Shown here piece by piece: positions 5,790 through 48,079 of a stretch of DNA of 64,000 nt (position 1 is its first letter; each line of letters starts with the position of its first letter). The stretch lies in the NCBI RefSeq assembly GCF_006715095.1, contig NZ_VFMO01000001.1, positions 2,480,001 to 2,544,000 on the forward strand. Direction: 5' to 3'. The notes below the pieces were generated by a model. It was given only the letters and a program-made list of their open reading frames with translations. It had not been told where the DNA came from and ran no database searches. A program made the position numbers and the translations under genes. This stretch comes from Yimella lutea (GTDB lineage Bacteria; Actinomycetota; Actinomycetes; Actinomycetales; Dermatophilaceae).

Positions 5790-6785
5790 GTGCCGGTGGC
5801 GGTGATCCTCGCCGGTGGACTCGGTACCCGGATGCGGCCGCTGACCGACCTGCGGGCCAAACCCGCGCTCCTGGTCGCCGGGACGCCCATCGTCGGTCAT
5901 CAGTTGCGTTGGTTGGCGTCTGCCGGGATCAGGCGGGTCGTGATCGCGACCTCCTACCGCGCGAAAGACCTGCGCACGGTCCTGGACGACGGCTCGGAGT
6001 TCGGGGTAGCGGTCAGTTACGTGCACGAAGCCGAACCTCTCGGGACCGGTGGCGCACTGGCGCTGGCCACCCGAGCGATGGATCCGCACCAGGCTGTCGT
6101 CGTCCTCAACGGCGACCAACTCACCGGTCACGACCTCGAAGCGCACCTGCTCGCGTTCGCCGACGGCGGCGTGGCTGTCACCATTCATGCCCGGCGAGTG
6201 GACGATGCACGCGCGTTCGGCCTGTTGGAACTCGACGGTGATCAGGTCCGCGGCTTTCGCGAGAAGCCCACCGAGCCGGTTCCCGGCGTCGTGAATGCCG
6301 GCACCTACATCCTGCGGGCAGGTGTCCTGCGCGACGTGCCGAGCGACACCGCGGTGAGCCTCGAACGTGAGGTGTTCCCCCGCCTGATCGCCGACGGTTC
6401 CGTCGTCACCGCATACCTGGAGGACGCCTACTGCCTGGACGTCGGCTCCCCCCGTGCGCTCCTTCAGGCCAACCGGGACGCGGTCGCCAGAACCGGTGCC
6501 ATAGCGCGGGTCGACGGCGTCGTGGCGAGCAGCGCGACCATCGACGGACACAGTTATGTCGGGACCGGCGCGGCGGTCGGCGCCGACGCGGTCGTCCACG
6601 GATCGGTCTTGATGCCCGGATGTGTCATCGGTGACGGCACGAAGATCGAACGCTCGATTGTCGCCCAGACCGCCGTCGTGGCCGCGGGAGTTCGGCTGCA
6701 GGACAACGTCATCGGCGAAGGAGCGCGGGTCAGCAGCTCCCTCGAACCCGGTGCGGTCGTGCCGACCGGTGCTGTGGTCGGTTAG
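5790..6785 (+). CDS. NDP-sugar pyrophosphorylase with hexapeptide-repeat C-terminus
   Basis: A 331-residue nucleotidyltransferase. The N-terminus has VILAGGLGTRMRPLTD followed by KPALLVAG, the nucleotide- and Mg-binding signature of GlmU/ManC/RmlA-type enzymes, then VVVLNGDQ. Residues from about 235 show left-handed beta-helix character (GTGAAVGADAVVHGSV, IGDGTKIERSIV). It should activate a sugar-1-phosphate with an NTP in the cytoplasm; mannose-1-phosphate guanylyltransferase is a likely but unproven assignment. The GTG start is taken because it opens directly on the nucleotidyltransferase domain, 2 bases after the acyltransferase stop. The coupling suggests both act on the same glycan pathway. 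Its stop overlaps the convergent polA stop. Confidence 0.85.
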   Translation: MPVAVILAGGLGTRMRPLTDLRAKPALLVAGTPIVGHQLRWLASAGIRRVVIATSYRAKDLRTVLDDGSEFGVAVSYVHEAEPLGTGGALALATRAMDPHQAVVVLNGDQLTGHDLEAHLLAFADGGVAVTIHARRVDDARAFGLLELDGDQVRGFREKPTEPVPGVVNAGTYILRAGVLRDVPSDTAVSLEREVFPRLIADGSVVTAYLEDAYCLDVGSPRALLQANRDAVARTGAIARVDGVVASSATIDGHSYVGTGAAVGADAVVHGSVLMPGCVIGDGTKIERSIVAQTAVVAAGVRLQDNVIGEGARVSSSLEPGAVVPTGAVVG

Positions 6786-45155: not shown

Positions 45156-45643
45156 GCGTGTTCTCCTGATGTGTGTCGTGGCGCGTCGCGAAGCGTACGC
45201 GCGGTCGCCAAGGCCGCAGTCGCGGCCTCGTATCCCTTGTCCTCACTCGAACCGGGCAAGCCCGCCCGATCCAGAGCCTGCTGATCGTCGTCGCACGTCA
45301 ACACCCCGAATCCGACCGGGACGCCGGTGCGCACCGAGACCTCGGTGAGGCCGATGGTGGCTGCCTGGCAGACGTAGTCAAAGTGCGGTGTCCCGCCCCG
45401 CACCACCACGCCCAGTGCGACGACCGCGTCATGGTCGGCGGCCAGACGTGCCGCTGCGACCGGAAGTTCGAAGGATCCCGGGACGCGGACGACGGTGGCG
45501 TCCGCGACGCCGGCATCGTCCAGGGACCGCTGTGCTCCGGCGAGCAGGCCGTCCATCACCTGTTCGTGCCAACTCGCGGCGACGACAGCGACCCTCAGAC
45601 CGCGCCCGTCGACCTGGACGGTCGGTGCTCCGTGTCCGCTCAT
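45152..45643 (-). CDS. ribH: 6,7-dimethyl-8-ribityllumazine synthase
   Basis: A 163-residue lumazine synthase that appears intact. It has [56 protein letters not shown] with the catalytic histidine, and [12 protein letters not shown]. It joins the ribityl pyrimidine with dihydroxybutanone phosphate, the penultimate step to riboflavin. Its partners at this locus are truncated, so its substrates could not be made here. It overlaps both neighbours by ATGA. Confidence 0.95.
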
Positions 45644-45999
45644 ACGGTTGCTCCTTCGTGGAGGTCGGGAAGGTCGTGACCCATCCGGTCACGTTTGGTC
45701 TGTAGGTAGCGCAGATTGTGATCGCTGACGCGCACCGGTGACGGCTCCATCGAACCAACCTCGATTCCGTTGTCCTGCAACCCGAGTCGCTTTGCGGGGT
45801 TGTTGCTGATCAGCCGAACATCGCAGATGTCGAGGCTGTGCAGGATCGCTGCTGCCGCCGCGTACTCCCGGGCGTCGACCGGCAGGCCGACGCCGCGACC
45901 CTCGTGACCACGCAGGTAGACGGGACTCGTCGTCGGCGACGAGCATCGGACGTCCGTCTCGTAGCGCCTGGAGTGCGTCCTCGAAGGAGTTGAGTTCAT
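45640..45999 (-). pseudogene. ribBA: ribBA remnant: ends of the bifunctional gene with the middle deleted
   Basis: A 119-codon frame remains of a gene normally about 420 codons long. After the start, a shifted frame reads [24 protein letters not shown], the N-terminus of DHBP synthase (RibB). The sequence then jumps into GTP cyclohydrolase II at [11 protein letters not shown] second gap follows: GVGL joins [11 protein letters not shown] directly, omitting about 24 residues. The tail [19 protein letters not shown] then [15 protein letters not shown] is normal RibA. The RibB active site and the zinc-binding cysteines of GCHII are absent, and the RibB part is out of frame with the start and with RibA. 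It overlaps ribE and ribH by ATGA. Confidence 0.85.
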
Positions 46000-46106
46000 G
46001 CCCTGACCTCCTCGACGTCCCTCGCCCCCACCACGATCTGGGCTGAATCGCCCTGCCGTTCAATGCTTTCGACGCGTCCGAGTTCCTGGATGATTCCGGT
46101 GAACAT
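45996..46106 (-). pseudogene. ribE: ribE remnant: riboflavin synthase with its interior deleted
   Basis: Only 36 codons remain of about 200. The first part, [18 protein letters not shown], is the unmistakable N-terminus of riboflavin synthase alpha. After about residue 26 it ends DVEEVRA and a stop, taken as the original C-terminus because the stop overlaps the next start. The lost interior contains the substrate-binding sites and both barrels. The start overlaps the ribD stop (TGATG) and the stop overlaps the ribBA start (ATGA), so operon junctions are intact. Confidence 0.8.
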
Positions 46107-46837
46107 CAGATTTCTCCTTCGGGTTCGAGCAGCCGGCTGTCCGCCGGAAGGTCACGGTGCCCGACGACGACCCGTAGCGGGTCGTGTCCGGTGTACGCCG
46201 AGCCGCGGACGGTGAGGGCCGGGTCGTCCGTCAGCGCGGTGCCGGTTCCCACGACGACCGCGCCGGAGCGCGCGCGCAGCGCGTGGACGTCCGCCCGGGA
46301 CGCGTCCCCGGTGATCCACCTGCTGCTGCCGTCGGCCGCGGCGATACGGCCGTCGAGGGTGGTCGCGTACTTCCACGTCACGTGGGGCCGGCCGTGCTCG
46401 GCCGCGAAGAACCAAGCTTCGTTCAGCGCTCTGGAGGACTGTTCGAAGCGCGGGGACGCCTTTTCGACGGCGATTCCGGCCTCACGCAGCAGCGCTGCTC
46501 CGCCGCCTGCTCGCTCCGATGGATCCGCCGCTACGAAAACCACACGCTCGACCCCGGCGTCGATGAGCGCCTGTGCACACGGCGGCGTTCGTCCGACATG
46601 CGTGCAGGGTTCGAGCGTGATGAAAGCCGTTGCGCCCCGGGCCGATTCGCCGGACTGTGCGAGTGCGGCGGCTTCGGCGTGGGCCGTGCCCGCGCCTGCG
46701 TGGAAGCCCTCCCCGACGACCACTTCGTCTCGCACGAGAACGCAACCGACGCGTGGATTGGGGTCGACGAGAGAGCCGAGCGCGGCGAGTGCCAGCGCAC
46801 GGTCGAGCATCTGCTCGTCCTGGGGGCTGAGCGCCAT
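46106..46837 (-). pseudogene. ribD: ribD with C-terminal reductase domain truncated
   Basis: A 243-residue frame; RibD is usually about 330-350. The deaminase domain is complete: DPNPRVGCVLV, HAEAAALAQSG and TLEPCTHVGRTPPC with zinc ligands. The reductase domain begins HVTWKYATTLDGRIAAADG, continues to VVVGHRDLPADSRLL, then ends EPEGEI and a stop. About 90-100 residues with the NADPH- and substrate-binding LLEGGPT region are missing. The ATG at 46837 is the first Met before the deaminase fold. Without the reductase, this protein could at most deaminate. Confidence 0.8.
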
Positions 46838-46927
46838 CGGTTCCTTCGGTCGTCCGTCATGGACGTGAACCGGGGCGATGGCGAACGCCAGGAAACCCGC
46901 ACGGGCTGACATCGAATGATGCACACC

Positions 46928-46943
46928 CGCAGGGCACCCTGCG
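46928..46943 (-). promoter_or_regulatory. Hairpin between FMN aptamer and ribD
   Basis: CGCAGG pairs with CCTGCG around a GCAC loop, extendable by one pair at the cost of a tight loop. It lies between the aptamer and the ribD ribosome site, where a riboswitch expression platform is expected. There is no U run, so it may act on translation or through Rho. Confidence 0.35.
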
Positions 46944-46972
46944 TGCTCAGAGAATGCCGAAGCAGACCCTGA

Positions 46973-47103
46973 ACGTGCGCCTCCCATCCGGACTTTCACC
47001 GTCGGTCCCGGAATTCCACCAGGTCAACCGCTCACCTCCGAAGAGGATCACGGGTCGCGGACTGTCACCGCCGGCTCAGAGTTTCGCTGACCCCGGAGCA
47101 CGT
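46973..47103 (-). promoter_or_regulatory. FMN riboswitch (RFN element)
   Basis: Read on the minus strand, P1 is formed by ACGTGC (47098-47103) and GCACGT (46973-46978). Conserved segments follow in order: CTCCGGGGTCAGCG, GAGCCGGCGGTGACAGTCCG with CGACCCG, then GACCTGGTGGAATTCCGGG, ACCGACGGTGAAAGTCCGGATGG. These are the hallmark loops of the FMN aptamer. FMN binding normally turns the downstream rib genes off. The aptamer shows no obvious damage although three genes behind it are truncated. Confidence 0.95.
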
Positions 47104-47113
47104 TTCGCCGATC

Positions 47114-47209: not shown

Positions 47210-48079
47210 TCAGGACGCCTTGACCAGCACCCGCCCGTCGGCGATCTTCACGTCCCAGCTGGGCTGCTCGACCGACGCCGGACCACGCATCGGCTTGCCG
47301 TCCCTCAGTCTGAATTCGCTTCCGTGCCAAGGGCATCGGATGCATCCGTCCTGGACTGTTCCTTCGTCGAGCGGGCCACCGGCGTGCGTGCACACGGACG
47401 ACAGCGCGTACACCCGGTCGTTCTGTTCGATGAGTACCACCGAGACACCGTCCGCCGTCACCCGCATCGGCGTGCCAGGGGTGAGATCGACGCGGGCAGC
47501 GACGTCGGTCCAGTCGTCCGTGCGGTGCTCGAACGCGGTGTGGTTGACACCTACACCCTTGACGAACGACAGGTGTCCACCGAGGTAACCGGCCCCCGCG
47601 GTGAGACCGACCCCTGCCAGGCTCAGCAGCCGCCCGGTGGAATGCCGACCCTTCCCACGCGCCACCCAGGACGCGACCTGCAGGACGGTGGCGGCCGAGT
47701 TGGCAGCGGCGTGCACCAACCCGACCCGCTGTTCGGCTCCGTAGCTGTCCGACCAGTCGGACGCCCCGGTGGCCGCAGTGGGAACGGAGGCGAGGATCCC
47801 CACCCCCACCAACCGGCGCGCCGCCGCGGCGTCTGCTCCGGTGAGGTCGAGCACGGTCGCCATGGCGTACGCGCCGATCGGCACGTCGGACAGAACCGGA
47901 TGGATCGGGTGGCCGAGGAAGGTGCCGGAAAGGATGTTCTTGACCGCCTTGTTGCCGGTCAATCTGCCGACGAAGCCGGCGTACGGCTCACTGATCTTGT
48001 CGAGGCCGCCCATCTCCTCGATCGTGCTGACCACAGTGCCTATCGGGTTGCTCGTCGGGTTGCTCGTCGGGTTGCTCAT
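47210..48079 (-). CDS. DUF2231 membrane domain fused to Rieske [2Fe-2S] domain
   Basis: A 289-residue protein. Residues about 45-180 form a DUF2231-type membrane domain (LGHPIHPVLSDVPIGAYAMATVLD). Residues about 195-289 are a Rieske domain with both cluster-binding boxes, CTHAGG and CPWHGSEF. It probably moves electrons at the membrane, but no partner oxidase or reductase is nearby. The N-terminus is a short repeat, MSNPTSNPTSNP, encoded by a 12-base unit right after the start codon. Not part of the rib operon: the rib promoter lies beyond its 3' end. Confidence 0.85.
   Translation of the reverse strand: MSNPTSNPTSNPIGTVVSTIEEMGGLDKISEPYAGFVGRLTGNKAVKNILSGTFLGHPIHPVLSDVPIGAYAMATVLDLTGADAAAARRLVGVGILASVPTAATGASDWSDSYGAEQRVGLVHAAANSAATVLQVASWVARGKGRHSTGRLLSLAGVGLTAGAGYLGGHLSFVKGVGVNHTAFEHRTDDWTDVAARVDLTPGTPMRVTADGVSVVLIEQNDRVYALSSVCTHAGGPLDEGTVQDGCIRCPWHGSEFRLRDGKPMRGPASVEQPSWDVKIADGRVLVKAS

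Follow-up and report, generated by a model that had tools for sequence, protein, structure and literature searches.

Although vitamin pathways are commonly lost, observations are mostly limited to the two ends of the process, and the halfway stage is rarely caught. In bacterial reductive evolution, pseudogene operons are lost by deletions after selection has relaxed. The riboflavin (rib) operon of Yimella lutea, located in a 64-kb stretch of DNA (henceforth termed the window), raises the question of how three consecutive genes can each have been cut internally while every junction between them persists, and whether such a pattern is genuine at all. Unlike the genes of ordinary pseudogene operons, the stubs at this locus keep a start, a native stop and a reading frame up to a live last gene. 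Here, we argue that the locus likely represents a genuine, recent and deletion-driven loss of riboflavin synthesis in which the transcript from the riboswitch to ribM has been kept, i.e., a rib operon caught mid-loss.

Three shortened genes in a riboswitch-led operon

The operon lies on the minus strand in the order FMN riboswitch-ribD-ribE-ribBA-ribH-ribM and is followed by hisE and hisG (Table 1). The host genome consists of a single contig of 3.53 Mb rated 100% complete, and named database matches to proteins of the window come from Leekyejoonella, Calidifontibacter and Flexivirga, which suggests a placement near the Dermatophilaceae/Dermacoccaceae. The genus sample comprises three genomes: that of the window (G000) and those of two congeners, G001 and G002.

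Table 1. Features of the Y. lutea rib locus, given as positions within the window.
Feature	Position	Strand	Remarks
FMN riboswitch aptamer (RF00050)	46972..47104	-	full length, 1-138; 87.6 bits (gathering 66.2), E 2e-19
Leader, riboswitch to ribD	46838..46971	-	counterpart in G002 leads directly into ribM
ribD remnant, 243 codons	46106..46837	-	deaminase domain whole, reductase domain cut; join near 46125/46124
ribE remnant, 36 codons	45996..46106	-	native start and ribBA-overlapping stop; join near 46030
ribBA remnant, 119-codon open frame	45640..45999	-	joins near 45921 and near 45891
ribH, 163 codons	45152..45643	-	intact lumazine synthase; PF00885, 176.7 bits
ribM (PnuX-type, predicted riboflavin importer), 249 codons	44406..45155	-	intact; PF04973, 156.3 bits

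Coordinates, Pfam matches and alignments confirm the internal deletions in ribD, ribE and ribBA, with preserved junctions, that had been proposed in a preliminary description of the sequence. The ribD product matches Pfam RibD_C over model positions 1-91 of 197 only, in agreement with the reported absence of the end of the reductase domain. Its nearest database protein, P0001, is a full-length RibD of 339 aa from another source, a relative, and shows 96% identity across the whole query. Five substitutions separate the two proteins within the first 237 residues of the remnant, the last seven residues are identical, and exactly 96 codons of P0001 are missing, in frame. The ribE remnant is composed of about 26 N-terminal codons, as previously stated, and a short tail that runs to the stop overlapping ribBA, as in G001; it covers Lum_binding positions 1-26 with 13.7 bits, a score below the cut-off.

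In the ribBA remnant, the sole Pfam match is to positions 117-161 of 165 in GTP_cyclohydro2, i.e., the last 45 positions. Compared with the intact operon of G001, an N-terminal RibB stretch, of which 19 residues align at the protein level, is joined near 45921 to the C-terminal half of RibA, inside which another gap of about 25 codons lies near 45891. Both the jump from RibB into RibA and the second gap had been recognized before. One point needs correction: translation from the ATG at 45999 reads the RibB stretch out of frame. A small frame slip beside the start is offset by the large junction, so that translation from the ATG still reaches the stop of RibA. At the DNA level, the short ribE tail and the ribBA head were aligned in scattered pieces to ribE of G001; for the RibB stretch, confirmation came from the protein alignment. 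With intact orthologues present in the same order in the near relative G001, and for RibD also in P0001, the operon is classed as pseudogenized by deletion.

Could the true locus be full length and the truncations an assembly or consensus artefact? The four separate joins fall within about 0.25 kb, while ribH, ribM, hisE, hisG and rpe align lengthwise to the congeners, and the genome is one complete contig in which no second copies were found. From the two origins considered earlier, several deletions or a collapsed consensus, these data favor the former; loss of the riboflavin pathway is moreover frequent in the family and also complete in G002, from the same genus. The preliminary description had named a full-length locus in a relative as a reason to reject the truncation. 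P0001 does supply a full-length RibD, and its 96% identity would be compatible with an artefact, but it carries five differences and comes from another source, and it suggests that the locus was intact until recently, not that the assembly is wrong. Further, two contigs are recorded for the 119-aa ribBA remnant (cluster P0241, two members), of which the host genome is the longest, and three for RibH. Since proteins of a single genome count one contig (P0004, P0021, P0219) or two (P0134, P0221), the contigs of P0241 need not represent two strains; a duplicate submission of the host genome may account for the second, in which case the double record would sit equally well with an artefact. On balance, we consider an artefact improbable.

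P0001 is itself doubtful as a healthy RibD copy, given a glutamate after its WIT motif that does not occur in the 110 of 119 homologues in which the motif was found (G in 77, N in 22, S in 10, D in 1). Its source relative may be drifting too, its pathway weakening by substitutions.

Pathway content and the predicted importer gene

A profile search returned no RibB match in the host genome (14 of 14 control genomes positive). For RibA, the ribBA fragment is the sole match in the genome (10 of 14 controls positive, the four silent ones being archaea), and for RibE nothing in the genome exceeded the cut-off, the best score being 11.8 bits (11 of 14 controls above cut-off). Because RibB is absent, RibA is present only as a fragment and RibE has no match above the cut-off, de novo riboflavin synthesis is, judged from gene content, lost; the loss claimed earlier for the locus extends genome-wide. 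Second gene copies located elsewhere, which had been suggested as a check for ribA, ribB, ribD and ribE, were considered as a replacement, and a genome-wide search for RibB, RibA, RibE, RibD_C and RibH found no substitute. One further RibD_C protein is encoded elsewhere in the genome; such proteins, one or more per congener, also occur in G001 and G002 besides or without RibD.

RibF (FAD_syn family, PF06574) is retained (E 2.1e-45). With RibA, RibB and RibE absent or truncated, RibF kept, and an FMN riboswitch upstream of the predicted importer gene, with the stubs and ribH still in between, the gene content corresponds to that of an auxotroph with riboswitch-driven import. We infer that the host is a riboflavin auxotroph, which can still import riboflavin and convert it to FMN and FAD provided that RibM works.

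The intact ribM and the FMN riboswitch flank the stubs; neither featured in the preliminary description, and together they likely give the truncation pattern its meaning. The ribM product carries PF04973, the family of RibM/PnuX importers, over residues 33-236. According to the accessible part of PMC4418817, assignment to RibM/PnuX relies on control by an FMN riboswitch or on synteny with rib genes, which holds for this ribM, and a further criterion given there is an identity of 38% or more across 80% to RibM of Streptomyces davawensis. On the basis of riboswitch and synteny, riboflavin rather than a nicotinamide compound is the predicted cargo. The dN/dS of ribM is 0.19 to G001 and 0.13 to G002 (range 0.13-0.19), by which measure the gene is evolving under constraint. 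Values are 0.20 for ribH, 0.08-0.14 for the neighbors hisG, hisE and rpe, and 0.28 for the kept part of ribD, the highest among the six genes compared, with the proviso that RibD may always evolve faster. As a clock for the loss, dN/dS was rejected, the synonymous sites of the congeners being too diverged (dS 0.39-0.99).

Related arrangements have been reported. As far as the available portions of two studies describe them, actinobacterial RibM/PnuX proteins are PnuC-family importers under an FMN riboswitch, encoded alone or within a rib operon (PMC4418817, PMC3239331). Compared with these loci, most enzymes of the Y. lutea operon are truncated, and transport by its RibM is a prediction. S. 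davawensis has a ribBMAH cluster with an FMN riboswitch and thus, like Y. lutea, a transporter gene inside a riboswitch-led rib cluster; ribM is second there and last in Y. lutea, and the accessible text mentions no truncation of synthesis genes (PMC3239331). The acI actinobacterium strain A4, according to the available excerpt, has lost its rib operon, is a predicted riboflavin auxotroph, keeps riboflavin kinase/FMN adenylyltransferase, and has its sole FMN riboswitch in front of a pnuC/pnuX-like gene (PMC5301498). It resembles Y. lutea in lost synthesis, riboswitch-led importer and kept kinase/adenylyltransferase, but represents an end state for which that excerpt mentions no remnants, whereas the Y. 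lutea locus is an intermediate. The end state of a riboswitch-importer unit without a rib operon is already published; the half-deleted intermediate appears to be new. No account of a rib operon that is half deleted but retains its overlaps was recognized in the literature searched, in which subscription journals are thinly covered.

Intact, half-deleted and clean loci in the genus and family

One genus shows an intact operon, a half-deleted operon and a bare riboswitch-transporter unit side by side. G001 has the full order D-E-BA-H-M behind its riboswitch, whereas G002 encodes neither RibB nor RibH and has the riboswitch, the leader and then ribM; both loci lie in the same rpe...hisG neighborhood. 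In the G002 locus (L124, around 6520-6660), what was once the ribD leader continues directly into ribM, and upstream there is a short start that shares the ribM frame. Between rpe and the riboswitch, the window contains a gene for a Rieske/DUF2231 protein (47210-48079, minus strand), at which the alignments to G001 and G002 break; the content of the rpe-to-riboswitch interval differs among the congeners. An old loss shared by G000 and G002 is not supported, given the existence near G000 of a full-length RibD with 96% identity. The RibM tree pairs the intact G001 with G000, weakly (94/74), and as a gene tree does not settle the shared-loss question.

Across the family, RibB was found in 150 of 186 genomes and the riboswitch in 176. 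The 36 genomes lacking RibB comprise 20 named directly and 16 obtained by subtraction. Three of them have no riboswitch match, and the riboswitch surroundings were examined in 28 of the other 33; the five left out are one locus at a contig end and four genomes without listed coordinates. In the 27 examined genomes besides that of the window, each of the 28 riboswitches is followed by ribM at a distance of 94-136 bases, and no rib gene besides ribM was detected in the fetched stretch at these loci. The window's genome is the sole exception to this riboswitch-then-ribM arrangement among the 28. RibH, sought in all 36 RibB-lacking genomes, is present in the window's genome and in 0 of the 35 others. 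The window's genome is the only intermediate found in the family, one in 36 RibB-lacking genomes, and this frequency suggests that the transition from intact operon to clean loss is fast.

A tree of 47 RibM rows, 29 scored as lost and 18 as intact, implies at least eight state changes, six of them forced by well-supported branches. Being a gene tree with chosen intact genomes, in which G124 appears twice and one 'intact' row, G156, stands for a separate riboswitch-ribM locus, it serves as a guide, not as a count of losses. The RibB-lacking genome G124 carries two riboswitch-ribM units (L131 and L132) about 1.6 Mb apart, with no difference between their RibM rows in the alignment. Among 21 intact genomes, ribM occupies the last position in seven, lies between ribE and ribBA in another seven and comes first in three; in the remaining four it was not found in the fetched stretch. 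Since the position of ribM varies among intact operons, the clean losses may have arisen by different deletions. Second-riboswitch loci also occur in RibB-positive genomes: among three that were fetched, one leads to ribM, and the other two, L152 (G077) and L153 (G046), have no rib gene downstream as judged by tblastn. The open frames at L152 and L153 resemble genes for an ABC permease and for a binding protein of the NMT1-like type, a combination as in RibXY.

Gene junctions and possible translation through the remnants

ribD and ribE overlap by one base (TGATG), and ribE/ribBA, ribBA/ribH and ribH/ribM by four bases each (ATGA). The overlaps linking ribD through ribH had been noticed before and are intact; that between ribH and ribM had been missed. 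All three remnants terminate at native stops, so that the start/stop overlaps still lead to ribM, the start of which is preceded by its own AGGAG. Counted from the nearest possible start, a choice favoring small values, a 4-base overlap follows ribE in 18 of the 20 intact genomes having a value and connects ribBA to ribH in 14 of 21, while the one-base ribD/ribE overlap occurs in six of 21 and the 4-base ribH/ribM overlap in G001 alone among five measurable intact genomes. In G001, ribD and ribE do not overlap. The ribE/ribBA and ribBA/ribH overlaps are of the common kind and the ribD/ribE and ribH/ribM forms narrower. As the ribD/ribE form is found in six of 21 genomes and the ribH/ribM form is shared with G001 only, the whole overlap chain is not family-wide.

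How readily might such an arrangement result from chance? If net lengths were random, the odds that each of the three remnants ends at its own stop would be about 1/27, a figure that is post hoc and, like the following one, rests on one locus. In a random-placement model, likewise post hoc, with deletion sizes fixed partly from relatives' gene lengths and the frame slip left out, all junctions were kept in 5-10% of trials, and junctions together with frames in 0.2-0.5% (0.002-0.005). The latter range speaks against neutral decay, in which four deletions would have fallen by chance within genes and in frame and ribM would be translated from its own ribosome-binding site, as do the native stops of all three remnants, reached in ribBA by two cancelling frame changes. 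Neutral decay agrees, however, with the larger deletion target offered by genes than by short junctions, with the AGGAG before the ribM ATG, with the restriction of the pattern to a single locus, and with the stop-free kept parts of ribD and ribH, by which the loss looks recent. We give it slightly less than an even chance.

In the reading that we favor, riboflavin would be imported through RibM and converted by RibF. The synthesis enzymes would become dispensable in a cell living on imported riboflavin, and relaxed selection would let deletions accumulate; these have removed the RibD reductase, nearly all of RibE, and the active parts of RibB and RibA. ribM would be the one distal gene still needed, located on the same transcript and reached via the overlapping stop and start codons. 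Deletions that halt ribosomes prematurely or destroy a junction would reduce the expression of ribM and be selected against, so that the surviving ones would keep starts, native stops and frame, be it directly or through compensating changes. Such a process is expected to end in a clean riboswitch-ribM arrangement as in G002.

Taken alone, the step of selection on translation through the stubs is plausible, if somewhat short of an even chance. The fuller proposal, that selection maintains the stubs as a translational relay from the FMN riboswitch to ribM and that ordered, frame-conserving shortening precedes clean fusion, is a tentative one, with the balance tilted against it. The AGGAG of ribM argues against the need for a relay, and coupling may help rather than be essential. 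The idea of dead stubs kept as a relay was not met in the literature searched. If it were true, a needed last gene would protect the reading frames upstream of it, not their functions, which would provide a rule for the order of loss, and operon loss would pass through ordered, frame-conserving shortening instead of random pseudogene decay.

A function of the shortened genes themselves, with the RibD deaminase part and intact RibH kept for another role, is very improbable. In its favor, neither the deaminase domain of RibD nor RibH is truncated or interrupted by stops, but RibA and RibB are missing to supply a substrate, the other RibB-lacking genomes have all dispensed with RibH, and ribD shows the highest dN/dS of the genes compared, a comparison uncontrolled for a generally faster RibD. 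The intact state of ribH, useless alone, fits recency as well as selection.
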